DNA of 64,000 nt from Janthinobacterium agaricidamnosum (lineage in GTDB: Bacteria > Pseudomonadota > Gammaproteobacteria > Burkholderiales > Burkholderiaceae_D), in assembly GCF_003667705.1 (NCBI RefSeq), contig NZ_CP033019.1, positions 2,604,001-2,668,000 of the forward strand, written 5' to 3'. Below, in pieces: positions 28,169-35,689 of the stretch. Within the stretch, counting starts at the first letter, position 1. Each line of letters opens with the position of its first letter. The notes under the pieces are model-generated. The model was not told where the DNA came from. It saw nothing but the letters and a program-made list of their open reading frames with translations, and made no database searches. The translations under genes were made by a program, and so were the position numbers.

Positions 28169-28903
28169 TCATGCATCCAACACGGTCAGGTGCGCCGTCG
28201 CGCCGTGGATCAGCGCGATCAGCTCGCCCTGGCGCCGCGTGTCGGTCTTCAAATAGGTGTGGTGCAGATGCGTCTTGACGGTATTGACGCTGATGCCGCC
28301 GCGCGCGGCGATTTCCTCGATGGTGGCCCCTTGCGCCAGTGCCTTGCCCACTTGCGCTTCGGCTTGCGTCAAGTCGAACAGCTGCCGCAAGGCAGTGACA
28401 GACGTGCTCGCTTGGGTGGGATCGCGCGCGATCAGCAGCGCGCATGGGGGCTGGCAATCGGCAAGCGGTGTGACTGTCAGGGCCAGGGGACCTTGCTGCC
28501 TGCGGGCCAGGCGCAGCGACTGGCATTGCGCTGCGCCGCCGGTGCTGCCGATGACCATGCGCACGGCGCGCGCCAAGTCGGGCGGCGCGGCGTGCGCCAG
28601 TTGCGCCGCATGCAAGGCGTGGCCGGCGGGCGTGGCGAAACGCAGTCCCAGGTTGGCGTCGAGCACCAGCACGATGGCGCCCATGGCGTCGAGTGCCGCC
28701 AGCGCGCAATGGCTGGCCAGTTGCGCTTCGCGCAGGCGCTGCTGCAGGCACAGGGCGCGTTGCAGATGCGGCAAGAGTTCCTGCCATTGCTGGCCGCTCA
28801 GGTCAGCGCTGTCGAGCTGCGGCCAGTCGCCCGCGCCACAGGCCGAGTCGTACATGGCGGCGATCAGTTTCCCCACATCCGCCGTTGCTGTACCTGTGTC
28901 CAT
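28169..28903 (-). CDS. LuxR-type transcriptional regulator
   Basis: 244 residues from ATG 28903. The C-terminal ~60 residues are a LuxR/FixJ helix-turn-helix: LTQAEAQVGKALAQGATIEE, then ISVNTVKTHLHHTYLKTDTR. The N-terminal region (MDAMGAIVLVLDANLGLRFA) has PAS-like character, but no autoinducer or receiver domain is clear. It is divergent from the vWA/PP2C/kinase operon across 276 bp and is therefore a possible regulator of that unit, although only position supports this. Confidence 0.85.
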   Translation of the reverse strand: MDTGTATADVGKLIAAMYDSACGAGDWPQLDSADLSGQQWQELLPHLQRALCLQQRLREAQLASHCALAALDAMGAIVLVLDANLGLRFATPAGHALHAAQLAHAAPPDLARAVRMVIGSTGGAAQCQSLRLARRQQGPLALTVTPLADCQPPCALLIARDPTQASTSVTALRQLFDLTQAEAQVGKALAQGATIEEIAARGGISVNTVKTHLHHTYLKTDTRRQGELIALIHGATAHLTVLDA

Positions 28904-29179
28904 GCTTGCCCCCAATCCTGACTACATCAATGTGCCGCAGGCGCGCAGGTGCGGAACTGGGTAAGGGCGGTGTTGCGCAGCGATTCGTCCCACCTTTGTG
29001 AGGAAAGTCTGTTCGCTGCCTTCTGTCCTGGGCAACTATCAAGATAGTACAAAGATATCGGTGCCGCAATGGTTCACGCCTGTCCTTCTGGATAGTGTTC
29101 TGCAGGAAACTCGCGCGGGTAAATCATGGCCATGATGTAAGATTCGCACTATGTCCGATTTCACATTTACCGATTGCCC

Positions 29180-29863
29180 ATGAGTTCAATAATGATTCCC
29201 GACGTCGCCCTGGTCGACAACACCGAACAACGCACGCCGCTGGTGCTCGTGCTCGACTGCTCCGGCAGCATGGATGGCGAACCCGTCGCGCTGCTCAACG
29301 ATGGCCTGGCCTTGCTGGAACAGGAACTCAAGTCCGATGTGATCGCCGCCAAGCGCGTGCGCATCCTCGTGATTCAATACGGCGCCCACGATGAAGCCGT
29401 GGTGGCCAGCACCTGGTGCGACGCCATGGATTTCACGGCGCCCCGGCTTGAAGCGAACGGCACCACGCCGACCGGGGCGGCTGTCGAACTGGCCCTGGCC
29501 GAGATCGAGCAGGAAAAGCAGCGCTTCCGCGCGGCGGGCGTGGCGTACACGCGGCCGTGGCTGTTTTTGATGTCGGACGGCGAGCCGACGGACCGCTGGC
29601 AGCGCGGCGCCGAGCAGGCGCGCGCGGCTGAACAGGCGAATAAAGTGGCGATCTTCCCCATCGCCGTGGGCGACCATGCGAACATCGATACGCTGGGGCA
29701 GTTTTCCAGCCGTGGCGAACGGGGCGTCAAGCAGCTGAAAGGCTTGCAGTTCCGCGAGCTGTTCCTGTGGCTGAGCGCCAGCATGCAGGTGGTGTCGCAG
29801 TCGCGCCCCGGCGCGCAGGCGCAGCTGGCGTCGACGGACGGCTGGTCTGTCGTGAGTACGTGA
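29180..29863 (+). CDS. TerY-like von Willebrand factor A protein
   Basis: 227 residues from ATG 29180; ATG 29192 is also possible. A complete metal-ion-dependent adhesion site is visible: DCSGSM (Asp-x-Ser-x-Ser) near residue 25, Thr in NGTTPTG, and Asp in MSDGEPTD. The sequence LDCSGSMDGEPVALLNDGLA matches the TerY/YegL type. There is no signal peptide, so it acts in the cytoplasm. It is the first gene of a five-gene run, 14 bp ahead of a PP2C phosphatase. In TerY-linked triads the vWA protein is thought to work with the kinase and phosphatase encoded beside it. A LuxR gene is divergent. Confidence 0.9.
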   Translation: MSSIMIPDVALVDNTEQRTPLVLVLDCSGSMDGEPVALLNDGLALLEQELKSDVIAAKRVRILVIQYGAHDEAVVASTWCDAMDFTAPRLEANGTTPTGAAVELALAEIEQEKQRFRAAGVAYTRPWLFLMSDGEPTDRWQRGAEQARAAEQANKVAIFPIAVGDHANIDTLGQFSSRGERGVKQLKGLQFRELFLWLSASMQVVSQSRPGAQAQLASTDGWSVVST

Positions 29864-29877
29864 AAGCCCGTTGATCC

Positions 29878-30632
29878 ATGGCAATAGCAAATCAGCATTG
29901 GCGCGTGTTCGGCGCGTCCGTCACGGGCAAGGCGCACCTGGATAAGGACATTCCTTGCCAAGACGCGCACGCGCACGCCGTCGTGAACGACGTTTTGGTG
30001 GCCATCGTCTGCGATGGCGCCGGCTCGGCCAGGCTCAGCGAGCAGGGCGCGCAGTTTGTTGCCGCGCAAACCGTGCAGGCGCTGGCCGGACGGCTGGAGC
30101 AGGGCGCCACCGTGCAGGATCTGCATGACGGCGCGCTGGCGGGCACCCTGGCGCAGATCCGCGCCGCGCTCGACGACATCGCCCGCGCCGCCAATGCCAC
30201 CTTGGACGACTACGCCAGCACGGTGGTGGGCGTGGTGATGGGCGCGGATGCCGGCTTCTTCTTCCACCTGGGCGACGGCCTGGGCGTGGCGCAACTGATG
30301 GACGGTGGCGAACTGATCTCGCTGCCCGCGAACGGCGAATACGCCAATGAAACATATTTCATCAGTGGCGAGCGCTGGCGCGAACAGTTGCGCCTGCTGG
30401 CGATTCCGCAAGCCGTGCGCGGCGTCGTGCTGATGTCGGATGGCTGCATGCCCTTTGCCATGAGCAAGAACAATGCAGCGCTGTACGCGCCGTTCATGGA
30501 TGCCGTGCAAGGCTATCTGCGCACGGTCGAGAGCAGCGAGCTGGGCAATACGGCGCTGGCGTCCACCCTGGCCGACCCGCGCACGCACCAGATCACGGGC
30601 GACGACAAGACCCTGCTGCTGGCCTTGCGCGC

Positions 30633-30636
<4 letters not shown>
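29878..30636 (+). CDS. PP2C-family protein phosphatase (YegK-like)
   Basis: 252 residues. Metal-binding acidic motifs of the PP2C fold appear in order: QDAHAHAV (Asp near 29), IVCDGAGSA (46-53), VVMGADAGFFFHLGDG, VVLMSDG and ITGDDKTLLL near the C-terminus. The family removes phosphate from Ser and Thr with Mn2+ or Mg2+. The stop overlaps the kinase start (ATGA at 30633-30636), implying translational coupling, and the natural substrate would be the kinase or its targets. It is cytoplasmic. Confidence 0.9.
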
Positions 30637-32993
<2,357 letters not shown>

Positions 32994-33002
32994 AGGAATA
33001 GC

Positions 33003-34349
33003 ATGAAAATCAAGATCCTATGCGCCATGTTGGGCGCCTGCTTGTTGTATCCGGGCATGGCGCAGGCGGACATCGTGCAGCGCCAGGTGCTGGCCAGCAT
33101 GGCCAGCGAGCAAGATAGCGAAGGCGGCGATGTGTTCACGATTGCCGGCACGACGGCCTGCGGCGGCAAGCAGATTCGCATGGATGCCCGCTCGGTCAAT
33201 CTGGACGAGGCGCCGTACGACGCGCTGAAAGCCGATCTGGCCCGGCACATCCGCAGCAAGACGCCCATGCTCGTCACCCTGAAAAAATGCCCAGAGGATG
33301 CAAGCGTGCCCATCGTGCGCCAGATCGCCGCCTGCACGCCAGCCGCCTGTGCCGATGGCCGGGCGCGGCTGTACCTGCACGCAGGTTTCTACCCCATCGA
33401 GCAGGAAAAAGCGCCCAACGTACTGCTGTTGCCCTTGCCGAAAGGCAAGCTGTCAGGCACATGGAAGGTCGATATTTATAGCGTCGCCGACCACAAGTTG
33501 CGCCTGTCCGGCCAGGTCAACCGCGCCGATTATGCCTCCGGCGAGCTGGTGGGCGGCTATGTGACGTATTTCCCCAATGGCAAGGTCGAGAAACAGGTGG
33601 CGCAGGATGGGCAAGGCCGGCAACACGGCATCGGCAGCAAGTACTATCCCGACGGCACGCTGGAGCTGCGCGGCAATTGGCGCCATGGCATGCCAGAGGG
33701 CGAGCACCAGCGCTATCACGCGACGGGCAAGCTGAGCGAGACGAGCAGCTACCGCGACGGCCAGCGCCTGGACGGGCCAGTGCAAACCTTCGATGAAAAT
33801 GGCAAGCCCAGTACCAGCTACACTTTACGCAGCGGCAAGATGGAAGGCGAGATGCTCACGTATTTCCCGAATGGAAAAGTCTCCAGCCGCTCGGAAATGC
33901 ACGATGGCAAGTCTAATGGCTTGACGACGAATTACTACCCCGATGGCGCCGTGCACGCCAGGATGACGCAGGTCGACGATTTGCCGGTCGGGGAAGCGCT
34001 GGAGTTCTATCCCGACGGCAAGGTGCAAAGCCGCCAGCGGTACGGCGACAAGGGCGGGCTGCTGAGCCTGCAGCGCTACAGTCCGCAGGGCGTGCTGGTG
34101 CTGGAACGACGCTGGGATGCGCAATGGCGCGAGCAGGGCACGTCGCGCTCGTGGTACGAGAACGGCAAGCCCGAGCAATCGATCGAGTACGTGAATGACC
34201 GGCGCGACGGCTGGAGCCGCAGCTGGCGCGAAGATGGCAGCCTGAAAAGCGAATGCCAGTATGTGGCCGGCAAGGCCCGGGGCGGTTGCAGCGAGCCGTT
34301 GCCATCGCAGGAACTGGAACGCAAGGAGCAAGCATGGCGCGCATTGTGA
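33003..34349 (+). CDS. Secreted MORN-repeat protein (YwqK-like), first paralogue
   Basis: 448 residues with a signal peptide (ILCAMLGACLLYPGMAQA). An N-terminal ~150-residue domain of unknown type (TACGGKQIRMDARSVNLDEA) contains several Cys. After it come about ten MORN_2-type units with the pattern YYPDGTLELRGNW...GMPEGE and YFPNGKVSSRSEMHDGKSNG. Such repeats are annotated as YwqK-family antitoxin-like in many genomes, often on little evidence. Being exported, this one more likely acts in the periplasm or envelope. It begins 9 bp after the kinase gene, with AAAGGA before ATG, and is part of the same operon. Confidence 0.85.
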   Translation: MKIKILCAMLGACLLYPGMAQADIVQRQVLASMASEQDSEGGDVFTIAGTTACGGKQIRMDARSVNLDEAPYDALKADLARHIRSKTPMLVTLKKCPEDASVPIVRQIAACTPAACADGRARLYLHAGFYPIEQEKAPNVLLLPLPKGKLSGTWKVDIYSVADHKLRLSGQVNRADYASGELVGGYVTYFPNGKVEKQVAQDGQGRQHGIGSKYYPDGTLELRGNWRHGMPEGEHQRYHATGKLSETSSYRDGQRLDGPVQTFDENGKPSTSYTLRSGKMEGEMLTYFPNGKVSSRSEMHDGKSNGLTTNYYPDGAVHARMTQVDDLPVGEALEFYPDGKVQSRQRYGDKGGLLSLQRYSPQGVLVLERRWDAQWREQGTSRSWYENGKPEQSIEYVNDRRDGWSRSWREDGSLKSECQYVAGKARGGCSEPLPSQELERKEQAWRAL

Positions 34350-35689
34350 AGCACGTGCTTGGCGCCACGCTGCTGTGGCCGGCGCTGGCCAGCGCCGAGA
34401 TCGAGCAGCGCCAGGTCGTCAGCGCCATCGCGGCGGCGGCCGGCGGCGATGTGCTGACCCTGGCCAGCGACAGCGGTTGCGGCGGGCGCCAGGTGCGCAT
34501 GGATGCCTTGTCCGTGCACCTGGACGCAGCGCAATACGCGGCCATGAAGCAGCAACTGGCGCCGTTGATACGCGAGGCGACGCCCTTGCTGATGCGCATC
34601 AGATCGTGTCCGGCACCCGGTGCGACGCTCGCCATGCCCGAAGTCAGCAAGCTGGGCGGCTGCGAGCCGCAAGCGTGTGCCGACGGCAAGGCGCGCCTGT
34701 ACCTGAATCACAATCTGACGCGCGGCGAAGTGAAGGAACATGCGCGCTATGCGCTGGTCGTTCCGCTGCCGCCCGGCAAGACGCCGGGCACCTGGCAAGT
34801 CGAGATCTATCACGTGCGCGAAGGCGAGCCGAAGCGGCTGACGGGCCAGGTCGACGCCCCCGATTACCTGCGCGGCAAGCTGGTGGGCAACTACAGCATG
34901 TATTACCCGCATGGTCAGCTGGAAATGCTGGTGGAGCAGGACGGGCGCGGCGTGCAGGAAGGCGTGCAGACCCGCTATTACCCGGACGGCCAGGTTTCCA
35001 TGCGCGGCACGTGGCGCAATGGCGTGCAGGAGGGCGAGGAGCAGACTTATCACCAGAGTGGCAAGCTGATCGAGTCACGCACCTACCGCAACGGCGCCCG
35101 CGCCGATGGTGTGGTGGAAACGTTCGATGAGCACGGCAAGCTGCGCACGCGCATGACGCGGGTCAAGGGCGAGACGGACGGCGAGCTGCTGCTGTTCTAT
35201 CCCGACGGCACCGTGGAAAGCCGCAGCCTGTATGTCAACGGCATCAGGACGGGACCGGGCACGGAATATTTTCCAGATGGCAAAGTGCGCAGCACGGGCA
35301 GTTATGTCGATGGCAAGCCTGCCGGCGAAAGCGTCGAATATTATCCGGACGGCAAGGTGGCCAGCCGGCGCACGCACAGCGGCCATTACGTGCTGCGCAG
35401 CGAACAGCGCTTCAGCCCCCAAGGCGTGTTGCTCGTGCAGAAACAGTGGAACGAGGGCGGCCGCGAGGAGGGCGCATTGCGCTCTTGGTACGCCGATGGC
35501 AAGCCGAAGCAGCTGATCGAATACGTCGATGGCGAGCGCCAGGGCTGGACCCGGCACTGGCGCGCAGATGGCAGCCTGGAAAGCGAATGCCGCTATGTGG
35601 CGGACGAGCCGCAGGGGGAGTGTATGGGTGCGTCTGCCAAGATGTCGTACACGGAGGATGGCATCGCGCCGATGATACCGGAACCGTGA
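34334..35689 (+). CDS. Secreted MORN-repeat protein (YwqK-like), second paralogue
   Basis: 451 residues from ATG 34334, which follows AAGGAG and overlaps the previous gene by 16 bp. The signal peptide (KHVLGATLLWPALASA) and the layout repeat those of the preceding gene: Cys-containing N-terminal domain (SGCGGRQVRMDALSVHLDAA) and about ten MORN_2 units (YYPDGQVSMRGTWRNGVQEG, YFPDGKVRSTGSYVDGKPAG). The two are clear paralogues by tandem duplication. It is the last gene of the vWA/PP2C/kinase operon; no terminator is obvious after it. Confidence 0.85.
   Translation: MARIVKHVLGATLLWPALASAEIEQRQVVSAIAAAAGGDVLTLASDSGCGGRQVRMDALSVHLDAAQYAAMKQQLAPLIREATPLLMRIRSCPAPGATLAMPEVSKLGGCEPQACADGKARLYLNHNLTRGEVKEHARYALVVPLPPGKTPGTWQVEIYHVREGEPKRLTGQVDAPDYLRGKLVGNYSMYYPHGQLEMLVEQDGRGVQEGVQTRYYPDGQVSMRGTWRNGVQEGEEQTYHQSGKLIESRTYRNGARADGVVETFDEHGKLRTRMTRVKGETDGELLLFYPDGTVESRSLYVNGIRTGPGTEYFPDGKVRSTGSYVDGKPAGESVEYYPDGKVASRRTHSGHYVLRSEQRFSPQGVLLVQKQWNEGGREEGALRSWYADGKPKQLIEYVDGERQGWTRHWRADGSLESECRYVADEPQGECMGASAKMSYTEDGIAPMIPEP

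Follow-up and report, generated by a model that had tools for sequence, protein, structure and literature searches.

The 64,000-nucleotide stretch of Janthinobacterium agaricidamnosum DNA analyzed here (hereafter termed the window) carries five genes that encode a vWA protein, a PP2C phosphatase, a membrane-spanning Ser/Thr kinase and two proteins with MORN_2 repeats. By their sequences, the first three genes are a TerY-P-type triad that is a distant relative of yegL-pphC-yegI from Escherichia coli. The kinase continues past its cytoplasmic half into a predicted periplasmic arm that comprises a TPR region and a TonB_C-like domain, and the companion of this kinase clade in other genera is this TPR/TonB_C module, not the MORN genes. 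We judge that there is an even chance that the five genes constitute a trans-envelope Ser/Thr phospho-switch in which the MORN_2 proteins of Janthinobacterium serve as ligands or adaptors of the arm. The genes, and the support for each assignment, are as follows:

29180-29863, plus strand: vWA protein (TerY/YegL-like), 227 amino acids; open reading frame (ORF) and Pfam
29878-30636, plus strand: PP2C phosphatase (PphC/YegK-like), 252 amino acids; ORF and Pfam
30633-32993, plus strand: membrane-spanning Ser/Thr kinase, 786 amino acids; ORF, Pfam and alignment
33003-34349, plus strand: MORN1, 448 amino acids; MORN_2 Pfam match
34334-35689, plus strand: MORN2, 451 amino acids; MORN_2 Pfam match

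These coordinates, the common plus strand and the intervals of 14, -4, 9 and -16 base pairs (bp) between successive genes confirm the arrangement given in an earlier note on this DNA. An in-frame ATG located farther upstream would extend MORN2 to 478 amino acids. From the spacing of the genes and their conservation, we infer that all five form one operon. A promoter and terminator scan of the operon scored near the mean of shuffled sequences, and an Rfam scan of the window yielded no match.

Within the genus, the window was compared with 29 fetched loci (L043 to L071). A kinase query matches 32 of 40 Janthinobacterium genomes, two of which (G145 and G152) hold only short pieces, leaving 30 genomes with the kinase, and the vWA gene is present in exactly the same 30. 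Every one of these, window included, has the order vWA-PP2C-kinase-MORN on one strand, and thus the linkage of MORN genes to the triad that was proposed earlier holds for the genus. The number of MORN genes varies: L069 and L070 have a single one next to the kinase gene, as does L067, where about 0.8 kb separates the two; L051 has three, and an additional one lies some kilobases upstream in L066 and L067.

The earlier note had also expected the five-gene order in several genera of Oxalobacteraceae. Conservation on this scale is ruled out by a search of 145 family genomes, in which the C-terminal half of the kinase occurs in only nine, eight of them from Janthinobacterium (own genome included). 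The ninth (G067, another genus) has a weak match (E-value 3e-4), with no triad gene in the 19 kb fetched. In the protein database, where the arm search scored the best 8000 candidates by common words, relatives of the arm and of the MORN N-terminal domain that carry an organism name are from Janthinobacterium, with the exception of one MORN record assigned to Pseudomonadota.

The proposed relationship of genes one to three to the TerY/Yeg triad is borne out by identities of 42%, 30% and 25% to E. coli YegL, PphC and YegI, respectively. The vWA protein matches Pfam VWA (1.6e-10), has no hydrophobic segment in a hydropathy scan, and carries the metal ion-dependent adhesion site (MIDAS) pattern DxSxS...T...D, whose residues D26, S28, S30, T96 and D133 are invariant in all five aligned proteins, YegL included. 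The phosphatase, whose gene adjoins those for the vWA protein and the kinase, matches PP2C_2 (8.5e-40), and its residues D46, G47, D188, D242 and D243 are invariant in five aligned sequences. The kinase is atypical, as evident by a partial Pkinase match that falls below the cut-off (1.4e-5; 25.1 bits versus 31.7). In an alignment of 13 kinases, the positions without variation include K51, D163, D182 and D184, and a PDB profile search with these kinases returns eukaryotic Ser/Thr kinases (best E-value 1.2e-8). The kinase is divided as follows:

30633-31592, plus strand: kinase domain, residues 1-320; mean identity of 96.5% among 24 operons
31617-31670, plus strand: zinc-ribbon motif (C329, H335, C343 and C346), conserved without exception in the 13 aligned triad kinases, E. 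coli YegI among them
31709-31765, plus strand: hexanucleotide repeat of 9.5 copies, encoding an Ala/Gln-rich linker
31860-31925, plus strand: single membrane segment, about residues 410-431, after an Arg-containing stretch; predicted N-in, C-out
32028-32660, plus strand: TPR region, predicted periplasmic, residues about 466-676
32742-32939, plus strand: TonB_C-like domain, residues 704-769, strand-strand-helix-strand

Excerpts of one paper describe TerY-P as a kinase that has a zinc ribbon behind it, together with PP2C and MIDAS vWA proteins (PMC11090510). The triads of this kind at CoCoNuT loci resemble the window triad in the three protein types, the MIDAS vWA and the ribbon after the kinase domain. 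However, the ribbon of the window kinase, which is predicted to lie in the cytoplasmic half, is not the C-terminus of the protein, but is followed by the membrane segment and the TPR/TonB_C arm, and the five genes include no nuclease or restriction gene. TerY-P triads are associated with tellurite genes or with restriction and defense genes, and PADLOC matches for the five window proteins are weak at best. The E. coli genes share a homologous triad, a membrane kinase and the order vWA-PP2C-kinase. They differ in that yegJ lies between pphC and yegI in strain K-12, and in that the tail of YegI after the kinase domain is unlike the one membrane segment and TPR/TonB_C portion of the window kinase. 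YegI and its neighbors (L075) give no match to TPR, TonB_C or MORN profiles.

The earlier note described a kinase with a membrane helix and a further half beyond it, and the hydropathy scan indeed calls a sole hydrophobic span (residues 402-435). Five Janthinobacterium kinases of L112 to L115 likewise have one hydrophobic segment after residue 300. The kinase is therefore predicted to cross the inner membrane once and to place its C-terminal half in the periplasm. The TPR region, the TonB_C-like end and the zinc ribbon are features additional to that note. In the structure model, the TonB_C-like end would consist of strands at residues 707-716 and 722-731, a helix at 733-743 and a strand at 760-769. 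PF03544 is annotated (precomputed) in two homologs (P0010 and P0013). Fold matches of the arm in PDB cover the TPR part alone, and a PDB sequence-profile match to TonB2 (2k9k) is weak (E-value 0.09). TonB proteins have an N-terminal membrane anchor with a Pro-rich spacer, and work with ExbB/ExbD. The N-terminus of the window kinase is instead a kinase domain.

The arm extends beyond the genus. A kinase-domain alignment scan of named genomes retained 80 of 91 loci, comprising 18 from Janthinobacterium and 62 others. Among the latter, 31 loci (L116 to L146) with 53-71% best-segment kinase identity are hereafter called close loci; they include representatives of Cupriavidus, Lysobacter, Luteimonas, Salinisphaera, Providencia, Proteus, Klebsiella, Serratia, Stenotrophomonas, Azonexus and Pseudoxanthomonas. 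When 1405 ORFs were searched with our own profiles, a TPR and/or TonB_C module was found fused to the kinase or encoded by an adjacent gene in 26 of the 31 close loci. The TPR module resides in the kinase in four and in the gene just downstream in 20, and TonB_C resides in the kinase in two and just downstream in 16, while vWA and PP2C genes are present in 29 and 28, respectively. Two loci have hits that these counting rules do not cover. In L123, which is one of the 26, the ORF hit overlaps the kinase, and its start is probably set too far upstream; the hit in L145 is a second copy.

The TonB_C profile was seeded with the window, L116, L130, L131, L136 and L146, and the TPR profile with L129, L130, L131, L136, L137 and L145. 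Therefore, eight of the 31 close loci do not count as independent tests, nor does the window in the case of TonB_C, whereas results from Pfam do. Pfam alone places TonB_C over its cut-off in seven close loci, namely L116 (Cupriavidus, within the kinase itself; 5.1e-12), L129 (2.8e-7), L130 (2.9e-17), L131 (2.4e-11), L134 (Stenotrophomonas; 7.7e-20), L136 (1.3e-10) and L137 (3.9e-12), and just under it in L139 and L146. As a control, the TPR and TonB_C profiles match none of 1189 ORFs (E-value ≤ 0.01) from 22 distant-triad, E. coli yeg and other loci.

In Enterobacterales, the gene directly after the kinase gene usually encodes a membrane protein of 780-890 amino acids with TPR and TonB_C matches (600 amino acids in L142, where it lies at a contig end). 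These clusters, from Proteus, Providencia, Klebsiella and Serratia, have kinases of the same clade (53-60% identity) and the same type of arm in the next gene. They differ from the window in that the arm is split off, usually carries TonB_C twice and has its own membrane segments, and in that the clusters give no MORN match. A comparison of profiles relates the Janthinobacterium arm to this fourth protein of Enterobacterales (E-value 3.4e-6, probability 88, 209 columns). Both states are seen most clearly in two metagenome-assembled genomes (MAGs) of Azonexus, in which the fused arm of L146 (a single MAG contig) is 47% identical to the split arm of L139 over 404 residues (E-value 6e-92), and the kinases are 82% identical over 346 residues. 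A tree of 43 kinase domains unites the MORN-bearing kinases in a single group (100/99), with Cupriavidus as its sister (99/96), and places the other fused kinase, that of Azonexus, apart from this group, paired with L139 (99/95). Thus, fusion or splitting occurred at least twice on the kinase tree. That the arm is either fused to the kinase or encoded beside it suggests that the two act together.

The MORN genes show no such reach in the searches made. No MORN profile match (E-value ≤ 0.01) was found at any of the 62 non-Janthinobacterium loci, several of which are short contigs (minimum 4.6 kb) where genes past the end could be missed. These 62 include the 31 close loci, for which stretches of 5-17 kb each were fetched. 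On this basis, we reject the idea that the triad is generally partnered by a MORN pair. Triads of this kind are rare, with five of 369 genomes of the class and two of 398 of the phylum (E-value ≤ 1e-50), and the distribution is patchy, with 17 of 399 genomes of the order (E-value ≤ 1e-15); each count includes the own genome. Viral contigs gave no match.

Within the genus, variation is greatest in the envelope parts. Among 24 operons (L066 to L071, six of the 30, were left out), mean identity is 96.4% for vWA, similar to the kinase domain, 91% for PP2C, 74-82% by segment for the arm, and about 81% for the MORN proteins. The ratio of nonsynonymous to synonymous differences (pN/pS) is about 0.08 for the kinase domain and vWA, and 0.24-0.35 for the arm and MORN proteins. 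The clade of the window (window, L043 and L044) has an arm that is only 62-69% identical to the rest, and in a comparison of this clade with the rest, pN/pS is 0.206/0.455 for the arm and 0.022/0.26 for the kinase domain. When the clade is omitted, the values are 0.021/0.27 for the kinase domain, 0.019/0.25 for vWA, 0.056/0.27 for PP2C and 0.091/0.28 for the arm. By these values, the arm evolves faster, and the clade of the window looks to carry a replaced arm.

The repeats of the last two proteins belong to family MORN_2 (PF07661; 8e-31 in MORN1 and 3.2e-33 in MORN2), not to the MORN family PF02493. MORN1 has a signal-peptide-like start (residues 1-22), an N-terminal domain with four invariant Cys residues, a MORN_2 sheet (residues about 182-420) and a C-terminal Cys pair. 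MORN2 has the same layout and is 49% identical. A signal peptidase motif is present in 57 of 59 MORN proteins, the four Cys residues in all 59 and two more Cys residues in 57, and a lipobox is matched by none. The two proteins are thus probably secreted, as in the earlier description of them as secreted paralogs, and are probably disulfide-bonded. The sheet is modeled at pLDDT values mostly >88, and resembles single-layer sheets such as those of OspA and protozoan MORN1; for the N-terminal domain, the confidence of the model is moderate, with blocks of about 50-88. A PDB sequence-profile match to SET7/9 is weak (E-value 0.0085), and the nearest NCBIfam entry, a Leptospira-type adhesin family, scores 53-55 bits, far under its cut-off of 250. 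In a tree of 30 MORN proteins, MORN1-like and MORN2-like members are separated by one branch (support 89/91). When matches beginning no later than model position 20 are counted as N-domain MORN proteins, 60 of the 63 among the matches listed lie ≤10 kb from a kinase. A whole-genome PF07661 search gave no match even in its controls and is thus uninformative.

Proteins of the MORN_2/YwqK family bear the database name 'toxin-antitoxin system YwqK family antitoxin'. The window proteins share their MORN_2 repeats, but add the signal-peptide-like start and the Cys-conserved N-terminal domain, and no toxin family is evident among the five genes or the seven flanking ORFs scanned.

How might these parts function together? 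In the phospho-switch we favor, a cytoplasmic core made of the zinc-ribbon kinase, PP2C and the MIDAS vWA protein would set a phosphorylation state. Besides autophosphorylating, the kinase would phosphorylate a target, for which the vWA protein is a candidate, and PP2C would undo this phosphorylation. The kinase would cross the inner membrane once, and its periplasmic TPR array with the TonB_C-like end would be an input arm that reads a periplasmic protein or a cell-wall signal and alters the activity or stability of the kinase. In Janthinobacterium, the pair of secreted MORN_2 proteins, which are probably disulfide-bonded, would be ligands or adaptors of this arm, acting on it as RtkS and TagR do on PpkA. 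Gene content, gene order, domains, linkage and the fused or split arm, as read from the sequences, form the basis of this proposal, and we infer the topology, the direction of signaling, the MORN contact, the target and the signal.

Two known systems inform the proposal. The triad itself is already known, and its E. coli members YegI and PphC act on one another: excerpts of PMC13232886 report that YegI is membrane-bound, autophosphorylates and is dephosphorylated by PphC, and state that conditions promoting expression of yegI and pphC have yet to be defined. Portions of another report describe Serratia RtkS as a secreted, DsbA-dependent protein that binds and stabilizes the periplasmic domain of PpkA, encoded directly downstream of fha and pppA (PMC6082577). 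By analogy with PpkA-PppA-RtkS, we take the arm to be the input and assign a ligand or adaptor role to the Cys-conserved MORN proteins. The PpkA/PppA systems with TagR or RtkS resemble the window operon in combining a membrane Ser/Thr kinase that has a periplasmic domain (predicted here) with an antagonist of the PP2C type and a regulator that is secreted to the periplasm (probable here). In contrast, no FHA or type VI secretion system family is found in the operon or the seven flanking ORFs scanned, and P. aeruginosa PpkA has a vWA domain within its own chain, as stated in part of PMC1262709.

Several observations weigh against this proposal. Arm distances do not track MORN distances across the 24 operons (r = 0.05 for MORN1, -0.08 for MORN2), or do so little when the clade of the window is omitted (r = 0.30 and 0.05), and the divergent arm allele of that clade has no matching jump in the MORN proteins. 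Strict coevolution of arm and MORN proteins is ruled out by these uncorrelated distances. The arm is present without MORN proteins in other genera, and three of the 63 listed N-domain MORN matches lie away from a kinase (G176:C109, G150 at 4.03 Mb and G092:C32). Neither MORN1 nor MORN2 has a segment that is called by hydropathy over 19 residues, such that the case for their secretion rests on the cleavage motif. The arm assignment is also less than uniform: TonB_C of the window kinase scores under the Pfam cut-off (9.3e-4; 20.0 bits versus 24.6), a TPR profile seeded from Enterobacterales scores the window kinase at an E-value of only 0.0056, and neither module is found in five of the 31 close loci (L119, L120, L121, L124 and L126). 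Finally, PP2C is less constrained (pN/pS about 0.21) than the kinase domain and vWA, despite being part of the core.

A broader proposal, which we put forward tentatively and consider somewhat less probable than not, is that the window represents an undescribed, envelope-spanning class of TerY-P signaling in Beta- and Gammaproteobacteria. Its conserved vWA-PP2C-kinase core would take input from a periplasmic TPR/TonB_C arm, located either in the kinase or in a separate membrane protein, that is swapped and diversified faster than the core, and Janthinobacterium would add a disulfide-bonded pair of MORN_2 ligands that read the envelope. We know of no stimulus for TerY-P and Yeg kinases. An arm that is seen both fused and split offers a handle on what these kinases sense and where to seek ligands. 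For bacterial MORN_2 proteins, which here bear an antitoxin-derived database name, the MORN pair supplies a partner that can be tested. No description of a TPR/TonB_C arm with this triad was found in the open-licence literature; subscription papers lie outside this scope, and therefore we use 'undescribed' provisionally. The main texts of PMC1262709 and PMC7159879 make no mention of TonB or MORN, but triad kinases with fused transmembrane helices already appear in PMC7159879.

The MORN pair might instead be the output, with the switch governing the production, export or assembly of MORN proteins for envelope building or coating, and the arm acting as a docking site or export chaperone. We regard this as possible, though rather unlikely. 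The MORN genes are last in the operon and number one to three, and their sheet resembles the single-layer sheets noted above. The lack of coevolution between arm and MORN proteins, along with the MORN-free arms elsewhere, keeps the idea in contention. However, the triad and arm occur without a MORN match in 31 of 31 close loci, and so the switch would need another output outside the genus.

It is improbable, in our view, that the MORN genes are passengers, derived from a secreted repeat family that settled behind the triad in the ancestor of one genus. Their restriction to a single genus in the searches made fits this idea, as does a second MORN_2 tandem without the N-domain elsewhere in the genome. 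Against this stand the triad-MORN linkage kept in all 30 genomes, the proximity of 60 of the 63 listed N-domain proteins to a kinase, and the tight spacing in the window, where MORN1 begins 9 bp after the kinase gene and MORN2 overlaps MORN1.

We give little credence to the idea of a TerY-P defense module facing the envelope, which would detect attack by phage or by contact at the cell surface and relay it to the cytoplasm. As excerpted, PMC11090510 reports that TerY-P triads accompany CoCoNuT and that modules with OB-fold-ended, TerY-P-like kinases are antiphage. Parts of PMC7159879 place kinase-PP2C-vWA sets, with a zinc ribbon or a kinase fused to transmembrane helices, beside conflict-type GAP1-N2 GTPase systems. 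These sets resemble the window triad in their possible kinase fusion to such helices, but the five window genes include no GTPase gene. The patchy distribution across order, class and phylum and the rapid diversification of the arm would suit defense, and the kinase matches models for PD-T4-6 (7e-5), MkoA (2e-3) and MAD6 (20 bits; cut-off 460), as PP2C does PDC-M21C (8e-4). However, all of these matches are weak, and PADLOC has no model that fits the vWA or MORN proteins. The five genes include neither a nuclease nor another effector, and a LuxR-type gene match near 24 of the 29 fetched genus loci suggests a stable genomic site.

In the window, this LuxR-type regulator gene (28169-28915, minus strand; GerE 3e-7) is divergent from the operon, and its matches reach ≥66% identity at 16 loci. 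Five of the seven flanking ORFs scanned match no Pfam family.

Some loci of the genus depart from the common form of the kinase. Two full-length kinases lie in tandem in L070 and L071, followed by one (L070) or two MORN genes. In L068 (8707-11051), the kinase frame is broken near residue 654 and the TonB_C-like end is split off; two database kinases (P0097 and P0098) are similarly short. Genome G145, which lacks the operon, holds a 63-residue piece that resembles the C-terminal end of the kinase (L072:7702-7884) and may be a relic of loss.

The second MORN_2 tandem mentioned above (L093:7688-9798; G000:C1:1465687-1467797 of the own genome) has no Cys-conserved N-domain and adjoins genes for an ABC exporter and a ClC-type channel (names assigned by eye). 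MORN matches of this N-domain-less type also occur in many other genomes of the genus. Repeats of the PF02493 type (G000:C1:208698-209030; L001 and L002) lie within an open frame of 544 codons that has no linkage to the operon.

Two more distant kinases were observed. A kinase of the same family in L084 (33% identity) has weak Pfam TPR matches in its tail and none to our TPR profile, and stands outside the arm count. In L178 (4225-6273), a related kinase is fused to an FGE-sulfatase-type domain (PF03781, 6e-45), which may represent another input domain.

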